Shown: in pieces, positions 25,423-32,721 of the stretch | Numbering within the stretch: position 1 is the stretch's first letter | Layout: the number at the start of each line of letters is the position of its first letter | From: Bacillota bacterium | GTDB lineage: Bacteria; Bacillota; UBA4882; UBA10575 | Direction of reading: 5' to 3' | DNA length: 33,109 nt | Assembly: GCA_012727535.1 (NCBI GenBank) | Contig: JAAYGU010000049.1 | Location: forward strand, 1-33,109 | Made by a program: the position numbers and the translations under genes | The notes under the pieces: model-generated | Seen by the model: only the letters and a program-made list of their open reading frames with translations | Told to the model about the DNA's origin: nothing | Database searches by the model: none

Positions 25423-25998
25423 ATGAAGCGACAGAAAGTTTTATTCTTTTCCGTGCTGGCCTTGGTTGTAATTGCCTTAATCTTCTCCGGCTGTGCCAAA
25501 TCGAGCGGAGGAAATAGTGGAAATGGCGGGAATAACGGAAACGGTGGCAATTCTTATGTCCCTGATTTTAACGCCTTTAAAGGGGTATGGAAGAGCCAGA
25601 ACATTACACCTGCTGTTGAAATTATGATTAGTGATCCAATTGAAGGCAGTGGTGACGAAGAGCGTTTATATTTCACCGGAAGGGTGACCTGTAATGTTTT
25701 TCGGGATGGAGGTTCGGAGATCGCGGAAACAGATGACTTCATTTTGGGTAAAAAGTACATCTTAGCAAGCATACTCAAATTTGGTGGGCTGATAACTAAT
25801 AGTATTCTTGTTAAGGCACATGAAGAGGATGAAGATGAATTTGGAGAAGAGGTTTGGAATGAGGTTGAATTGGACGGATATTTGAGTGATGCCAATACAC
25901 TTAAAGCCGCTAGATTGTATGTTAGGGAGAAAGATAAAGATAAAATTGATTTTGATCCGAAAGATGGTACTCTGTTTATAACCTTTAAAAAACAATAG
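25423..25998 (+). CDS. Lipoprotein of unknown function
   Basis: The 191-residue product starts with a type II signal peptide (basic MKRQK, hydrophobic core, IFSGC with Cys24 as the lipidation site). A Gly/Asn-rich flexible linker (GGNSGNGGNNGNGGN, about 29-43) and a domain of about 145 residues follow. That domain is rich in beta strands and acidic residues (HEEDEDEFGEEVW) and ends KDGTLFITFKK. I do not recognise the domain. Base use looks more AT-rich than in the conserved block. GGAGG lies about 13 bases before the ATG. It has its own unit between two terminators. Confidence 0.75.
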   Translation: MKRQKVLFFSVLALVVIALIFSGCAKSSGGNSGNGGNNGNGGNSYVPDFNAFKGVWKSQNITPAVEIMISDPIEGSGDEERLYFTGRVTCNVFRDGGSEIAETDDFILGKKYILASILKFGGLITNSILVKAHEEDEDEFGEEVWNEVELDGYLSDANTLKAARLYVREKDKDKIDFDPKDGTLFITFKKQ

Positions 25999-26011: not shown

Positions 26012-26051
26012 AAGGGGCTGTCTTAAGATTATTCTTGTGGGGCAGCCCCTT
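26012..26051. terminator. Shared hairpin between convergent lipoprotein and regulator genes
   Basis: AAGGGGCTG (26012-26020) and CAGCCCCTT (26043-26051) are exact complements. The 22-base loop can form a small inner stem AAGA/TCTT. The right arm lies inside the last codons of the regulator gene. TTTCTT follows it on the minus strand. Confidence 0.65.
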
Positions 26052-27624
26052 CTTGCTCCTGGATCAACTGGACATAAAGCAGCAACTCTTTACGAGAAGT
26101 GACGTTCAGCTTGGCGTAGATCCGTTTATTATGGGTTTTAATCGTGTTGATCGAGAGGCACAAGATTTCAGCGATCTCCTTCGCGGTGTAACCTTTCATA
26201 TAAAGGTTGAAGACAGCGCGCTCGGCAGGGGAGAGGGTCTCAATGTTTTTGACAAAATTTTGGAATAGGGTAGAGTTTATTGTCACTTCCTCCGTCCCCA
26301 AGGAAGGACTATCGGACGTATCGCGCGCGGCCAAAAAAGCAATCAAGTCATCGATCTCTTGAATATTCGTTTTTTCGTAGGTAGATACTTGGCCGTTCTT
26401 CACCATCTGCAGGGCACCGACCACCGGCGCCATTTGGCGGCGGCTGATTAAAGAGGCGGCACCCACGCTAAAGATGAGCAGCATAAGCAGTAAAATTAGA
26501 AAGCGGCGGTTTTGTTCCCTAATATTTACCACCAAATCCCGTTCCGGTATTAAAATAGCCAGTACCCATTCATCTCCAGAAAAGGCGGCATCCTTTGGGT
26601 AAATGTTTATTTTTTGGTGGAGGCCCGAGTACGCGGAGCCGTTCGACGCTGAATAACTTGATATCCCTTTATCCAACGCTTTGATCGACAAAGTACCACC
26701 ACTTTGTAAGGGAATAGCGCTGTAATTTCCAGCATACATCGCTTTTGAAGCGTCGAGGGCATTTCCTTGCACCGGTGCGAGCATGGTGAAGGCCCGGGTG
26801 TAGGTGGAGTTGGCCGGGGTATTTTGCAGTTTGAATAACATGGCACTGACTTCGAATCCGCAAACACCGACAATAAAACCATCAGAAGTAATGAGCGGTA
26901 CACAAAGTAACATGGCTTTTTCATAATTGCCCGCCAACGTACTACTCGGGTTCCAGTAATATAGGCGCGACAGTGGAAGATCACTACCCTTCGCCGCGTT
27001 TATGGTTGTGAAAAAAAAGTCGCCCGGTTCCACTTGGAACTCCATTTGCCATTGGGGCAGTAAATGAAGGTGTTTTTGTCGAGCAATGGAAGCGGGGCCC
27101 CGTAAAAAACGGATCGCCGGGAAAGCAAGGTTGATGACGTTGGGTTCCATGTTTTTCAAAAAAAGCCCAGCACGGGAAGTTTCTGCGGTGTCCAGCGCCG
27201 GATTGACCGTAGCATCCAGAACCAGAAAGGCACCACTAGACTTGTTCTTTTCCAGTGCTGCGACCAGCAGCTCAACGGATTCACTGAGGATTGGCTCTAA
27301 AAGATGGGGATGATTTTTTAGCTGAGAGGGGCTTAAACCATCTGCTTGCAGTCGGCTTTCGATTTGTTCGGTCAATCGCTTCGCCAGTGCAACTCCTTCT
27401 ACCGAGAGGACACCAAATTCCCGGGCAACATCCCCGGCGATATGTTTGAGTTCATTCCGTAAAAAGAGATGACACTCGTTAACCCCAACAGAAAAAGCCC
27501 CGGTGGAAAAGAGAATCAATAATAACCCCAACATAACGGCCGATAAGAAGAGGAGGAAAAAAGTAAAAGAACGTCGTTGCAGAGAAAGCCCGTTCTTCCC
27601 AAGGAAGAGAGTTGGCTTGAGCAT
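26029..27624 (-). CDS. Membrane-anchored LuxR-type regulator with extracellular sensor domain
   Basis: A one-component sensor of 531 residues from the start used here. Order: membrane helix at about 20-42 (FTFFLLFLSAVMLGLLLILF); an extracellular region of about 330 residues with Cache-like features (GAFLVLDATVNP, KAMLLCVPLITSDGFIVGVCGFEVS, WVLAILIPERDLV); a second helix at about 374-394; a short HAMP-like linker; and a C-terminal LuxR HTH (about 464-520: LSPAERAVFNLYMKGYTAKEIA, NTIKTHNKRIYAKLNV, shown in parts). I chose the ATG at 27622-27624 because GGAAGGTG lies 8 bases upstream. The frame extends to TTG at 27654, overlapping the upstream gene, but without a Shine-Dalgarno. It is 26 bases after the solute-binding protein gene, so the two are probably co-transcribed. 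Ligand and targets unknown. Confidence 0.85.
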   Translation of the reverse strand: MLKPTLFLGKNGLSLQRRSFTFFLLFLSAVMLGLLLILFSTGAFSVGVNECHLFLRNELKHIAGDVAREFGVLSVEGVALAKRLTEQIESRLQADGLSPSQLKNHPHLLEPILSESVELLVAALEKNKSSGAFLVLDATVNPALDTAETSRAGLFLKNMEPNVINLAFPAIRFLRGPASIARQKHLHLLPQWQMEFQVEPGDFFFTTINAAKGSDLPLSRLYYWNPSSTLAGNYEKAMLLCVPLITSDGFIVGVCGFEVSAMLFKLQNTPANSTYTRAFTMLAPVQGNALDASKAMYAGNYSAIPLQSGGTLSIKALDKGISSYSASNGSAYSGLHQKINIYPKDAAFSGDEWVLAILIPERDLVVNIREQNRRFLILLLMLLIFSVGAASLISRRQMAPVVGALQMVKNGQVSTYEKTNIQEIDDLIAFLAARDTSDSPSLGTEEVTINSTLFQNFVKNIETLSPAERAVFNLYMKGYTAKEIAEILCLSINTIKTHNKRIYAKLNVTSRKELLLYVQLIQEQEGAAPQE

Positions 27625-27650
27625 CTTTCGCACACCTTCCACCGAATTCT

Positions 27651-29012
27651 TCAAGGATTGACAAAGTCCTGATAAAGCCCTTCGCTCACCACAGATAAAG
27701 ATTTATGCTCCTGAAGAACAGTCGTCCTTCCTTCCAACATTATTTGTTTCACCTTTTTCTCATATTCTTTGCTTAACCTGTCTAAATGCTCATAGTTTGG
27801 CGGGGCCAAGAAGGTGTATTCCCCGTACATGTGAGCTGCGGCCTCCAACAGCTTCTTTAGATTCTGGGTTTTCGCCGCTGTGATCTCCTGTTTGATATTG
27901 TTTTCAAAGGCTTCTTTGGTGACGGGGAGATAACCCGTGGAAGAGACAAAGCGCATATTCTGCTCCGGTTGGGTGAACCACTTTAAAAATAACACGGCGG
28001 CATATTCCTTTTGGGGCGAAGAGCGTCGGACGCACATCCCTCCGCCGCGCTGTAAAGCCAATTTGGCCCCACCCTGAAAGGTCGGGTAAGGCAAAACGGT
28101 ATAAGTAACATCCTCTCTAGTATTATCCGGATAAGTAATACTGTCGCCATAAAAAAGGATTCCGGCTGTCGATCCGGTTGAGCAGACGATCTCACCGGTC
28201 CTGGACAGATCAGAGGAATAACCGTCCGTGACAGCATGACCGCCGGCCAAGGCGGGCAGAACACTAAAATTCCAGATCGGTCTAAAAAGTTCCGAAGTGA
28301 TATTCAGATGATTTGGGTAGATGAACTCGCCACCTAATTGAGCCATGCCGACCTGAGCAATATTAAACCAGGAATCGGCAGTAAAAAATGTCTTACCGTC
28401 GTTGGCCTTGTGGGGCGTGAGCGAATCCGTCCATTGGTAATATTTGACTGCGGCTTCGGCAATCCCCTCAAAGGTTGCGAGACTGTCCAGCTCAACACCG
28501 GTTGCTGCGGAAAAACGATCAAACAGTGTCTGATTGACAAATAAGACCTCAGTGGATTTAGCGATAGGAAAAACATAAAGCTTGCCGTCGGAGAGTCTGC
28601 CTTCTTCGATAAATTGGGGCAGATAAGCATCCAGTTCCTTACTGGTGAACTCATCGTCTAAAGGGGCTAACAGTCCTTGTTTCCATAGGATGAGGGCTGT
28701 TTTGGGGTAAGCAGTTACGAGATCGGGCATCTCCGGCGCACCGGGGTCGCCGGCAGCGATCATAAACAGCTTTTCTTGGATATCTTTAGAAGCCGAAATG
28801 GAAGTAACACTGATGATGACACCTTTCTTCCGCCCGATGGTGCTGTTAAACTCGTCAATCAGTTCGTCCATCGCGCTCTGCATCTGACCGCCATAGTTGT
28901 GCCACATGGTAATCGTCACTGGCTTTTTGGGATCAAGCTTTACTCGATCGCACCCCATGAACAAGAAAGCTGTCAGAAGACAGAGGAGCAGCAGGGTGAT
29001 CCTTTTCTGCAT
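27651..29012 (-). CDS. Extracellular solute-binding lipoprotein, family 1
   Basis: A 453-residue periplasmic-binding fold protein, probably for a sugar or oligosaccharide. It has a lipoprotein signal (MQKRITLLLL to FLFMGC, Cys21), then VTITMWHNYGGQMQSAMDELIDEFN and a MIAAGDPGAPEMPDLV segment. VFPIAKSTEVLFVNQTLFD and EYAAVLFLKWFTQPEQNMRFV follow, all typical of the MalE/UgpB-like family. GGAGGCGG precedes the ATG at 29010-29012. No permease or ATPase gene adjoins it. The only partner is the membrane LuxR-type regulator, which suggests a sensing rather than transport role. Confidence 0.92.
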   Translation of the reverse strand: MQKRITLLLLCLLTAFLFMGCDRVKLDPKKPVTITMWHNYGGQMQSAMDELIDEFNSTIGRKKGVIISVTSISASKDIQEKLFMIAAGDPGAPEMPDLVTAYPKTALILWKQGLLAPLDDEFTSKELDAYLPQFIEEGRLSDGKLYVFPIAKSTEVLFVNQTLFDRFSAATGVELDSLATFEGIAEAAVKYYQWTDSLTPHKANDGKTFFTADSWFNIAQVGMAQLGGEFIYPNHLNITSELFRPIWNFSVLPALAGGHAVTDGYSSDLSRTGEIVCSTGSTAGILFYGDSITYPDNTREDVTYTVLPYPTFQGGAKLALQRGGGMCVRRSSPQKEYAAVLFLKWFTQPEQNMRFVSSTGYLPVTKEAFENNIKQEITAAKTQNLKKLLEAAAHMYGEYTFLAPPNYEHLDRLSKEYEKKVKQIMLEGRTTVLQEHKSLSVVSEGLYQDFVNP

Positions 29013-29168
29013 TGGAACCGCCTCCATTATTTAATGGGCAAACTTTTCTTCAGGCGTCCTTAAGTTATGACGCCCTTTAAATATTTTGGGATTGGTTGGC
29101 TCACCCGTCTCTTCTCTAATGCCACTTCGGGCGTGGGCGGTAGGCGGGGGGAGCGACTTTAAAGAAAA

Positions 29169-29221
29169 ATCACCCCAAAAATCACCCTTGTTTTGTTGCT
29201 TTAATCACCCCTGGGGTGATT
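29169..29221. promoter_or_regulatory. Operator cluster with palindrome AATCACCCCTGGGGTGATT
   Basis: A 19-base exact palindrome with one central base (29203-29221) is preceded by two more copies of the half-site: ATCACCCC at 29169-29176 and ATCACCC at 29181-29187. Same-orientation half-sites start at 29169, 29181 and 29204, spaced 12 and 23 bases, about one and two helical turns. The cluster lies in the 354-base intergenic region between the divergent solute-binding protein and BTAD-regulator genes. A second small inverted repeat, GGCGTC/GACGCC (29053-29074), lies near the lipoprotein gene. Confidence 0.7.
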
Positions 29222-29247
29222 ATTATTAATGAATTATTTCGTATAGT
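29219..29247 (+). promoter_or_regulatory. Possible activator-dependent promoter of the BTAD regulator
   Basis: TATAGT (29242-29247) is a good -10, but 17 bases upstream only ATTATT (29219-29224) stands at -35. The weak -35 overlaps the right edge of the palindrome, as expected for an activator-dependent or autoregulated promoter. The leader would be about 130 bases. Confidence 0.35.
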
Positions 29248-29381
29248 TAAGGTGGAAAGACCCAATAAAATTCATGTTAAAAGAAGAAAGAAATCCCTCG
29301 CTCTTTTATTCTACCAATAAAAGCCACTAAGTCAATAATTATGGTAGATGATTCCATCAATTCGAAGGGGGAAAGACAGCA

Positions 29382-30572
29382 ATGGGTTTCCACCAATCCT
29401 CGGAATCAAAACTGAAAACTAATGACCTGGCTTATTTGGGGTTTATAAAACTTGACCGCTCATCCCCTGCCCATAACCACTTGGTCAATATCCGGGATCA
29501 ACATAGCGCTCTTGCTTTAGCCGAATATTATTTCCGGTGTGGCCTGGACGTTTTTCAACAGGTCGGCCACGACCACTTTTTTAATGCCCTCAACCGTTCC
29601 CTTTTGGCGTTAATCTATGCGCGGAAAGGAGAATGGGATGAGGCGTTAAAGATCGCGGAGGAAGCCTTTGATGATGCCTCGGCACAAGGCGGGGCACTCG
29701 CGCCGATTTGTGAGCTCCTCTTAAGTGCAATCCTCGTGGAGAGCGGAGCTCACCAACAAGCCCGGAGACGTTTGGCCAACTCGATGGAGTTATTAAGAAG
29801 AATGGAGGTTGAAACAACAGGCAAAGACTCCTCTCTCTTTCGAATACAAATGTTTGGGCCAATCCGGGTCTTCCATGGGGGGCAGGAGATTAATGCGACC
29901 CAGTGGCGAACGGTTAAATCTCGCCACCTTTTGGCCTACCTTGCCCATCAGGATAAGCCGGTCAGTACCGATCAAATCATCGAGGATCTATGGCCGGATG
30001 TTGATCCGGATCGAGCTTTAGCCTTGTTTCACACCACTCTTTATTATTTGCGCCGACTATTACACCAGTTTACGCAGGAAGAGATGATCATTCGCGGTTC
30101 CAAACGTTATCAGCTCCGGCCCGGAAGGATCTTAAGCGACCGTTTCCAATTTGAAAAAACTGCCCATTTAGCCTTGGAAAAAGAGATAACCGCCGCCTTG
30201 GCTGAGCAGTTGGAAGCCGCAGTATCACTTTACCGGGGTGACTATCTTGAAGATCTCGACTATCAATGGGTCATGCCGATTCAAGAAAAATTGAGAAGTT
30301 TAAATCTGGAATTAAGACAGAAGTTGGCAGTCTATTATCTGCAGAATAAAATGCCGGCCAAAGCTTTACTTCATTTGCAGCAATTGATTATGTTGAACCC
30401 TTACTCAGAAACAACCTTAAAACTATTACTAACCGCCTGCGCGGAAATGGGCGATCAAGCCGCTGTCATAAAACACTATGCGGCCTTTACCAAAAATATT
30501 TCGGAAGAGTTGGGCTTGCAACCGTCTTCCGAAATGAAAAAGTTCTTCGCGCACATATCAAAACAAAAGTAA
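29382..30572 (+). CDS. SARP-like transcriptional regulator (TPR, winged helix, BTAD)
   Basis: The 396-residue protein has an N-terminal TPR-like helical part (about 45-145: LNRSLLALIYARKGEWDEALKIAEEAF in pieces). An OmpR-type winged helix of SARP regulators follows (about 152-250: FRIQMFGPIRVFHGG, RHLLAYLAHQDKPVSTDQIIEDLWPD, TLYYLRRLL), and then a bacterial transcriptional activation domain (about 255-395: AVSLYRGDYLEDLDYQWV, LNPYSETTLKLLLTACAEMGD, YAAFTKNISEELGLQPS). Larger relatives carry an ATPase ahead of the TPRs; here none is present. AAGGGGG precedes the ATG at about 11 bases. It is divergent from the solute-binding lipoprotein gene. Confidence 0.88.
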   Translation: MGFHQSSESKLKTNDLAYLGFIKLDRSSPAHNHLVNIRDQHSALALAEYYFRCGLDVFQQVGHDHFFNALNRSLLALIYARKGEWDEALKIAEEAFDDASAQGGALAPICELLLSAILVESGAHQQARRRLANSMELLRRMEVETTGKDSSLFRIQMFGPIRVFHGGQEINATQWRTVKSRHLLAYLAHQDKPVSTDQIIEDLWPDVDPDRALALFHTTLYYLRRLLHQFTQEEMIIRGSKRYQLRPGRILSDRFQFEKTAHLALEKEITAALAEQLEAAVSLYRGDYLEDLDYQWVMPIQEKLRSLNLELRQKLAVYYLQNKMPAKALLHLQQLIMLNPYSETTLKLLLTACAEMGDQAAVIKHYAAFTKNISEELGLQPSSEMKKFFAHISKQK

Positions 30573-30634: not shown

Positions 30635-31585
30635 CTACTTTTGCTCGACCAGATCTCCAACCTCCGTTGTCAGGTCGCCGCTTAATCTCTTCAAAACCGT
30701 GCAGGTTGCAGAGCGCTCCTTAACCTCGGCCACTTTAATCTCGGCCACCGTTTCAGTGACTTCATCAATGACCTCCTCGGTAATTGGATCTTTTACCACC
30801 TCAAGTACCCGCTTGACGACAAAAACCATATCTGTTTTGACCCCGGTCGATGAACCGATATTAATGATTACTCTGTCCCCCGAAGCATAAGCAACAACAC
30901 CCTTTAGTTTCGCGGCTGGGGACACTTTCCGACCACTGCTGTAGGCTTGATCGGCTAACTGCTTAGCTGCTGAAGTCACCGCCTCACGCAAGGCGATCCC
31001 TAAATTGGTTGTCCGAAATTCATCGCTGCCAAGGGCGACCGTACTCCAATCCACGGCCACCGAAAGGTTGGTACTGCGTTTATCACCTCGACCGGTGGCA
31101 CTGGCAATAATCTCTGCGGTATTGGTATCAACCAGGCGGGCATCGATCGCCACAATCGCGTTGGTACTCTTGACCCCCAAACCAAGACCACTTTTGAAAC
31201 TCAAACCACTCACTTCGGTTGATTTGAGACTGAATTCGGTGACTCTGCCCATTACCAAGAAGTCAACGCCTAAGATTTTACCAATGTTCGCGGCTGTTTT
31301 GGCATCAACTCTTCCACTTTGACCAAAGTCTTGTTCTTCAAGGACCTTATCAATCTGTTCCCGTTCGATCAGCCTGAATCTTTTCGTCTTCAAAAATTCA
31401 GTGACGAATTCGTCGGAGATCCCTTTACCGACATCCCAATGGCCCTCATCCCACCAGCGATCTTGGATCGAACCGTCGTCAAAGGGGAGGACAGCAATTT
31501 TATAGAGTTCCTCAGCGCCCGCAGCTGGTAGGAGCAGAGCAGTAAAAGTGAATAACAACAACCATAAGACAAGTCTACGTTTCAT
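30635..31585 (-). CDS. CsgG-family secreted protein
   Basis: A 316-residue protein with a Sec signal peptide (MKRRLVLWLLLFTFTALLLP, then AGA and cleavage before EE). The CsgG/HfaB-like domain (about 25-220) has YKIAVLPFDD, GKGISDEFVTEFLKTKRFRLIEREQ, AANIGKILGVDFLVMGRVTEF and VDTNTAEIIASATGRG. CsgG proteins form outer-membrane pores or envelope assembly factors in diderms. Unlike E. coli CsgG it has no lipobox cysteine. The last 85 residues (GVVAYASGDRVIINIGSSTGV onward, in part) look like a small beta domain seen behind CsgG domains. GGAGGTGG precedes the ATG. It follows the membrane protein gene by 35 bases and is probably in its operon. Confidence 0.85.
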   Translation of the reverse strand: MKRRLVLWLLLFTFTALLLPAAGAEELYKIAVLPFDDGSIQDRWWDEGHWDVGKGISDEFVTEFLKTKRFRLIEREQIDKVLEEQDFGQSGRVDAKTAANIGKILGVDFLVMGRVTEFSLKSTEVSGLSFKSGLGLGVKSTNAIVAIDARLVDTNTAEIIASATGRGDKRSTNLSVAVDWSTVALGSDEFRTTNLGIALREAVTSAAKQLADQAYSSGRKVSPAAKLKGVVAYASGDRVIINIGSSTGVKTDMVFVVKRVLEVVKDPITEEVIDEVTETVAEIKVAEVKERSATCTVLKRLSGDLTTEVGDLVEQK

Positions 31586-31620
31586 TTGACCACCTCCAAA
31601 ATTTTTTATCCGGCAAAACC

Positions 31621-32721
31621 CTATTCGATCGTGAGTCCGATTAAGATGTCACACTCGGTCTCTTTGGGATTGATCGTGATTACGCCGGAGCGTTTATCTT
31701 TTTGAAAACTGATCATCTTCATCTCGACGAGGTCTTGGGGAGTGACACTCCAGCCTTTAGCTTCTAGGTTTTTGAGGTAATAATCGTAAATCTCACCGGC
31801 GGAATCCCCAGAAGTCAGGATCGTAGTGGAGCCCGATAACTCATCGTCTTTACCACCGATAAAACCGTCAATTTCAGCGCGGGGATAGACGGGAATATCC
31901 TTAGGAAAGTTCTCCGGAAGGCCGGAACCAAAACTCAGATCTCCTATCTTAAATCTACTACCCTTTTGCCCAAGCTCAATATCTTCTCCAGTAATGCCGC
32001 TGAGAATTTTCGAAGTTAGGTCAGTGCTCCGTCTAGGGGAAGAATTCCTTCCGAAGCCAAAGATCATACAAACGGCTCCAATAACCAGTAAGGCCGTTAG
32101 CGCAATCCCGGCTTTTTGCCGCATTTGTTTCTCCAGTTTAAAGGGGGGTGGTTCTTTGACAGAAAGCTGTTCATAGACGAAAGCCATTCCGATCATTCCG
32201 AAAGGAATAGTCAGGATAACACCGATCCCAAAAATGAGGGAGCCAATTCCGCTGATCACCATCATTGCCAAACTATAAAGCCAAAGCTGCGTCCATTCAG
32301 TGGCAAAACAGGCGATGCCACGTTGAAGCGCCTGGAGCGGTTGTCTTTTCTGTTCGACGATGAAACCGATGGTCAGGAAATACAGAAGAAATAATACCGG
32401 ACTAACAATAAGGTTGGTTATCCAGCCGATTACCGGGATGACTCCGATAATATAAAACACGATGCTTGCTCCCCAGAGCAGAAGTGTCGCCACTAAGGTA
32501 GGGAGAAACTGATCAAAATGAGCAAAGAGCTCATTTAGTTCTCCCTTTTCCCCGCGGATCAGCTTTAAGCCAAGAACCAGAAGGCCGCCAATCATAGGAC
32601 CGGCTAGAATACCGAGGGAAACAAAGGTGATTGCCCCCGCGATTAAAGAAGCCAGGACCAGCAGGCCGAAGTTCTTTAGGTATAAATTGAAACTTTCTTG
32701 GATGTTATTAATAAGATTCAT
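31621..32721 (-). CDS. Multi-pass membrane protein with C-terminal soluble domain
   Basis: I do not recognise the family. The 366-residue protein has about seven hydrophobic segments (two within 19-53, then 74-94, 98-122, two within 145-185, and 203-223). A linker and an extracytoplasmic-type domain of about 95 residues follow (LPENFPKDIPVYPRAEI, GEIYDYYLKNLEAKGWSV, ISFQKDKRSGVITI). The first part resembles polytopic proteins of DUF975-like type. The C-terminal motif of a proline-rich start followed by YYLKNLEAKGW is seen in lipoproteins of Bacillota. AAGGAGGCG precedes the ATG. Confidence 0.75.
   Translation of the reverse strand: MNLINNIQESFNLYLKNFGLLVLASLIAGAITFVSLGILAGPMIGGLLVLGLKLIRGEKGELNELFAHFDQFLPTLVATLLLWGASIVFYIIGVIPVIGWITNLIVSPVLFLLYFLTIGFIVEQKRQPLQALQRGIACFATEWTQLWLYSLAMMVISGIGSLIFGIGVILTIPFGMIGMAFVYEQLSVKEPPPFKLEKQMRQKAGIALTALLVIGAVCMIFGFGRNSSPRRSTDLTSKILSGITGEDIELGQKGSRFKIGDLSFGSGLPENFPKDIPVYPRAEIDGFIGGKDDELSGSTTILTSGDSAGEIYDYYLKNLEAKGWSVTPQDLVEMKMISFQKDKRSGVITINPKETECDILIGLTIE

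Follow-up and report, generated by a model that had tools for sequence, protein, structure and literature searches.

Can a solute-binding lipoprotein (SBP) that is encoded beside a membrane-bound transcriptional regulator, with no permease gene next to it, serve in sensing instead of uptake? The question arises from a locus in the window, that is, the whole stretch of 33,109 nucleotides analyzed here. A preliminary description had placed an SBP gene, a membrane regulator with a C-terminal LuxR-type helix-turn-helix (HTH) and a divergent BTAD regulator side by side, and the open reading frames fall where it had put them (Table 1). The regulator starts either at a TTG at 27654, which overlaps the SBP stop by 4 bp, or at an ATG at 27624, and the 26-base gap that had been described between the two genes holds for the latter start but not for the former. 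The small lipoprotein gene on the far side of the regulator is possibly an accessory component, a weak case.

Table 1. Features of the locus (window positions unless stated as residues, aa).
Feature	Position	Strand	Basis and remarks
Small lipoprotein gene	25423-25998	+	Convergent with regulator; in 5 loci
Membrane LuxR regulator	26029-27654	-	ORF, Pfam, fold model, hydropathy
Regulator domains	TM1 ~aa 17-50; TM2 ~aa 372-396; GerE/LuxR HTH ~aa 463-517		Short cytoplasmic N-terminus, TM1, dCache-like ectodomain, TM2, linker, HTH; aa counted from ATG 27624
Lipoprotein SBP	27651-29027	-	Directly 5' of regulator, same strand
Two extra half-sites ATCACCC	29168-29187 (29169-29175, 29181-29187)	.	Direct repeat at 12 bp; spacing to palindrome conserved
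Palindrome with flanks, TAATCACCCCTGGGGTGATTA	29202-29222		Further half-sites at 29169 and 29181
Predicted LuxR operator	29203-29221	.	Perfect palindrome AATCACCC-CTG-GGGTGATT; kept in 27/31 loci
Palindrome, ATCACCCCTGGGGTGAT	29204-29220		In the SBP-BTAD gap
TPR, weak winged-helix, BTAD regulator	29382-30572	+	Divergent; Pfam

The identity of the solute-binding lipoprotein was borne out by several lines of evidence. The protein is of the SBP_bac_8/SBP_bac_1 kind (SBP_bac_8, 4.9e-29 in Pfam), its lipobox cysteine Cys26 is invariant among homologues, and its confident structure model (pLDDT 89) matches SBPs of the PDB at 1e-22. The fold matches are SBPs of importers (dinucleotide, UgpB and maltose/oligosaccharide binders) at 14-20% identity. 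The regulator is, as described, a two-helix membrane protein with a C-terminal LuxR HTH (GerE, 5.6e-15, aa 473-527 in Pfam; residue numbers are otherwise counted from the ATG at 27624, and the TTG start adds 10), the hydrophobic segments TM1 and TM2 being consistent with transmembrane helices by hydropathy. Residues 236-259 are also hydrophobic by score, yet form a beta strand in the structure model. The Pfam scan of the regulator returned no domain besides GerE and other HTH-type models, and no kinase domain, and its NCBIfam matches are at the level of the HTH only. The extracytoplasmic region comprises ~320 residues. Its structure model is of moderate confidence (pLDDT 65, with a low-confidence distal part), contains a long helix (43-94), and finds its best PDB matches in the dCache domains of the chemoreceptors Tlp1 and PacA, at 3e-4 and with low TM-scores, PctA ranking lower. 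The ectodomain has no Pfam match, Cache models being non-significant (the best was dCache_1 at 0.17 in one relative). Thus, the Cache-like nature that had been ascribed to it is supported by the fold matches, but not by a significant Cache model.

A lipid-anchored SBP fold is one feature of SBP-dependent ABC importers and is present here; linked permease genes are another and are absent beside the pair. For the search, a permease model was made from the genome's own CUT1-type permeases together with those of two complete importer loci (L102 and L103), of which it strongly recovers the four importer genes, themselves members of the model. It found no match in the 33-kb window nor adjacent to the pair in any LuxR-type locus, and the Pfam model BPD_transp_1 has 0 matches on the contig versus 28 elsewhere in the genome, so that the absence of a permease that had been noted at the locus stands. 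A few loci have ABC-ATPase domains in the vicinity of the pair, mostly within exporters or unrelated systems. It had also been considered that homologues might mostly adjoin full ABC transporters; they do not, because the permease model matched, among the LuxR-type loci, only L037 (a partial gene) and L038, 3-4 kb or farther from the pair, and nothing on the contig. The SBP could still belong to an ordinary importer whose permeases lie elsewhere, with the regulator sensing the nutrient by itself and co-regulating its uptake, and both the 28 matches in the same genome and the resemblance of the SBP fold to sugar, dinucleotide and glycerophospho importer SBPs speak for it.

The distribution of the two genes bears on this reading. 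Among public genomes, 19 essentially full-length relatives of the regulator were found (39-86% identity), and the homologous SBP gene lies directly upstream in all 19. In a sample of 399 Bacillota genomes, an ectodomain profile identified 19 carriers belonging to many families, with one copy each; all of these matches had a best E-value below 1e-120, while weak or intermediate scores were absent, and one of the 19 genes is split by a frameshift. The SBP profile at E<1e-190 matches the same 19 genomes and one more (G126), where the SBP sits at a contig end; in another genome (G158), the SBP and the regulator lie at the ends of different contigs. Wherever the contig leaves room, the SBP is the immediate same-strand upstream neighbor of the regulator (31/31 loci, public and sampled, including a few duplicate species from the two collections, e.g., L036/L077 and L044/L078), and the other neighbors vary. 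The conserved neighborhood that had been suggested as a check is therefore found for the pair, and the ectodomain is well conserved among the homologues. The pairwise distances of SBP and LuxR proteins correlate with r=0.97 over 27 non-duplicate pairs, a value to which shared ancestry contributes. These data confirm, beyond a single locus, an SBP-LuxR two-gene unit spread patchily across the Bacillota. The closest relative, a member of the same genus, has its regulator ORF broken up into two overlapping frames (L045:5559-7194, also L014 and L019; G013), next to an SBP gene, an operator and a BTAD gene that look intact; an assembly error or decay may be the cause.

The next-nearest SBPs (E about 1e-108) are also encoded directly 5' of membrane receptors, in this case a 1316-aa hybrid histidine kinase (L100) and a 992-aa GGDEF-EAL protein (L101), whose N-termini are homologous to the LuxR-type ectodomain (BLAST, 1e-9 and 3e-11). 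These sister pairs lie at L100:1916-7316 and L101:6629-11166; the kinase of the former also carries a GGDEF domain, and one genome (G376) has a LuxR-type and a GGDEF-EAL-type pair together. At a greater distance (E about 1e-70) are the SBPs of the complete importers L102 and L103, with an ATPase and two permeases. In the SBP tree, the LuxR-type clade (support 100/99) is sister to the kinase/c-di-GMP clade (100/99), next to the ABC group. This topology suggests that the SBP of an importer was taken over by a sensor, and that the output domain of this sensor was exchanged. Such outgroup SBPs, being importer subunits, again fit the ordinary importer; against it stand the constant pairing at 31 loci, none of which has a permease next to the pair, the sister SBPs that pair with other receptor outputs, and the linked and predicted target genes (see below), which include envelope genes and regulators instead of uptake or catabolic genes. 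We thus disfavor an orphan importer SBP and consider this explanation quite unlikely.

A related possibility is that the ectodomain suffices by itself as a dCache sensor, and that the role of the SBP is limited to concentrating, buffering or competing for the ligand with no direct contact. dCache domains usually bind small ligands directly, and the top fold matches of the ectodomain are ligand-binding chemoreceptor domains. In the clostridial CuaD-CuaS-CuaR system, the SBP binds the kinase ectodomain and raises its sensitivity, and the receptor pathway perceives the ligand even without the SBP (PMC10384115), the latter being in line with a sensor that suffices by itself. However, SBP and receptor are strictly paired and have diverged in parallel, which argues against it, as does the SBP-receptor contact published for several SBPs encoded beside their receptors, and we regard a self-sufficient ectodomain as unlikely. 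Contact between the SBP and the ectodomain is the reading we retain, by which the SBP would hand the signal over to the regulator.

The gap between the SBP and BTAD genes had been described as palindrome-rich, and the palindrome is real: ATCACCCCTGGGGTGAT is the sole match at ≤1 mismatch in the 2.23-Mb genome, and 0.12 matches at ≤2 mismatches would be expected by chance in the window. The conserved form is AATCACCC-N3-GGGTGATT, usually with further half-sites, and it was found 5' of the SBP gene in 27/31 loci at ≤2 mismatches (25 at ≤1, shuffles 0). More than half of these loci share the two extra half-sites, at a spacing of about 23 and 12 bp. There are 29 exact sites in 24 carrier genomes and another one in the genome of the window, versus 0 in 25 genomes without the system (about 69 Mb). 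The presence of the site follows the recognition helix of the LuxR domain, as a site at ≤1 mismatch occurs in 22/22 loci with a THNKR or THSKR helix and in 0/6 loci with an altered one (THTKR, THNNH, THTRR or THNRR), in raw locus counts that ignore phylogeny; in L087, whose relatives have lost the site and the SKR helix, the two are still present. Since the palindrome sits in the divergent promoter of the BTAD and SBP genes, it might instead be the operator of the BTAD (SARP-type) protein or a transcription terminator, with the LuxR protein binding elsewhere. SARPs bind direct repeats, and the palindrome, with T-rich sequence behind it, scores as a terminator-like hairpin. However, the same site lies 5' of the SBP gene where no divergent BTAD gene is found (L044, L047, L081, L085, L087, L099 and others), and it thus follows the LuxR protein, the one DNA-binding protein that all loci share. 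Together with the lack of exact sites in the 25 genomes without LuxR and with the link to its recognition helix, this led us to reject a BTAD operator. The conserved direct half-sites, which cannot be a terminator, and the position between divergent genes make a terminator unlikely here, but possible at one off-locus site (L140). Taken together, this alternative is highly unlikely, and the palindromes are best read, from their sequence and distribution, as the predicted operator of the LuxR regulator because they persist without BTAD.

The divergent gene indeed encodes a BTAD protein (BTAD, 1.6e-18, above the cut-off, with TPR_12 in Pfam), in which Trans_reg_C (4.5e-4) matches at the expected place, below its cut-off. 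Within the system that had been proposed, it is not a core member: it is divergent only in the lineage of the window, AraC regulators or envelope genes being found elsewhere, and as it is absent from the distant loci, BTAD was rejected as a core component. It is predicted to be a target of the regulator in this lineage only. At three loci from another family (L084, L086, L088), the divergent gene encodes an AraC regulator; in other loci, the genes nearby or divergent encode zinc-ribbon proteins, DUF4870-like membrane proteins, an AIM24-domain protein and lipoproteins. At a locus that lacks BTAD (L042:3619-6206), two FGE-sulfatase/PEGA-domain proteins are encoded behind the same operator, divergently from the SBP. 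Convergent with BTAD in the window (30635-32721) are genes for a CsgG-domain protein and for a multi-TM protein whose C-terminal domain looks extracytoplasmic, a gene pair that is kept in 7 related loci and comprises possible BTAD targets.

A set of zinc-ribbon, DUF4870-like, AIM24-domain and small DUF6591-type lipoprotein genes recurs near the pair (L044, L046, L047, L049, L050, L079, L081, L083, L085, L087, L099, L105) and looks envelope-related; the literature found on the zinc-ribbon/DUF4870/AIM24 set consists of phage-shock surveys only. Exact sites away from the pair lie 5' of a DUF4870-like and lipoprotein operon on another contig (L131), which is the same operon as seen near pairs, of a DUF4870-like gene (L139), of lipoprotein genes (L137, L138), one with VWA domains, and, in G360, of another AraC regulator (L132). 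As these sites precede a gene set that is also linked to the pair, they argue for a real regulon with envelope-related functions, and the linked genes likewise point to envelope-related functions, not sugar uptake. Some off-locus sites may be non-regulatory; L140, for instance, falls on the 3' end of an Hsp33-like gene. In the family of the window, the sole exact match is the locus site, and the likely targets are therefore the regulator's own operon and BTAD, in a cascade.

Given the above, we consider it likely that the pair forms an SBP-gated one-component membrane transcription factor that regulates its own operon and switches a second-tier regulator, the contact between SBP and receptor, the direction of regulation and the ligand being inferred. 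The SBP and the regulator would constitute a two-protein receptor, in which the lipid-anchored SBP would bind a solute outside the cell and, with (or without) this ligand, dock on the dCache-like ectodomain. A conformational change may then pass through TM2 and the linker, and set the activity or the dimer state of the C-terminal HTH, which, held at the membrane, would bind the palindromic operator and the neighboring half-sites. In the genome of the window, the regulator would control its SBP-luxR operon and BTAD, because the only site lies between them, and in other lineages, the same sites may act on genes for AraC regulators or for the envelope (lipoproteins, DUF4870-like membrane proteins). 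The computed support consists of the gene pairing, the co-occurrence, the lack of an adjacent transporter, the conservation of the operator and its link to the HTH, and the partner swaps in the sister clade. The core of the preliminary description, in which the SBP gene serves a membrane regulator acting without a kinase, is hence supported by the absence of adjoining ABC transporters, the co-occurrence and adjacency of the genes, and the conserved ectodomain.

The closest known relatives of this arrangement are LuxP-LuxQ, XylFII-LytS, TorT-TorS and CuaD-CuaS, which share an adjacent SBP gene, a membrane receptor with an extracytoplasmic sensor and, as proposed here, an SBP dedicated to sensing. 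In contrast to such SBP-gated kinases, the receptor here ends in a GerE/LuxR HTH and lacks kinase, phosphoacceptor and receiver domains. The SBP-gated c-di-GMP enzyme STM1987-ArtI is alike in its periplasmic or surface SBP and dCache-type receptor, and the sister SBP clade has a GGDEF-EAL partner (L101), whereas the proposed output here is direct DNA binding. ToxR and CadC combine a DNA-binding domain and an external sensor in one membrane protein, and are comparable as one-protein membrane transcription factors. They differ in that their DNA-binding domain is an OmpR-type winged helix at the N-terminus, and we know of no SBP gating for them. DadR, HcdR and CadR of the Coriobacteriia are also membrane-embedded one-component regulators, LuxR-type HTH activators with 10-12 TM helices, in a text that does not mention SBPs (PMC9734109); the regulator studied here instead has two TMs by hydropathy and a large ectodomain, and an SBP gene is its obligate companion. 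The divergent BTAD protein shares the BTAD region of AfsR and FevR and, by a match below the cut-off, possibly the winged helix, but has TPRs N-terminal to its putative DNA-binding region and is a lineage-specific neighbor only; its full-model matches all score far below the equivalog cut-offs. The targets listed for SBP-dependent signaling are chemoreceptors, sensor kinases, diguanylate cyclases/phosphodiesterases and Ser/Thr kinases (PMC9602780, PMC11113362), and in the openly accessible literature, we found no SBP-driven membrane transcription factor and no pairing of an SBP with a membrane LuxR protein.

On balance, it is somewhat probable that the pair represents a Bacillota-wide class of SBP-gated, kinase-free membrane transcription factors with their own operator, derived from an ABC SBP through a sensor module with swapped outputs. 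If true, a direct DNA-binding member would join the known SBP-driven receptors, and the sensing of extracellular solutes would reach the DNA via two proteins with no phosphotransfer. Since the predicted operator is about 20 bp long and occurs as a single copy in the genome, the regulon is directly testable. Together with the sister clades, the pair would present one SBP-sensor module with three interchangeable outputs, namely histidine kinase, GGDEF-EAL and HTH.
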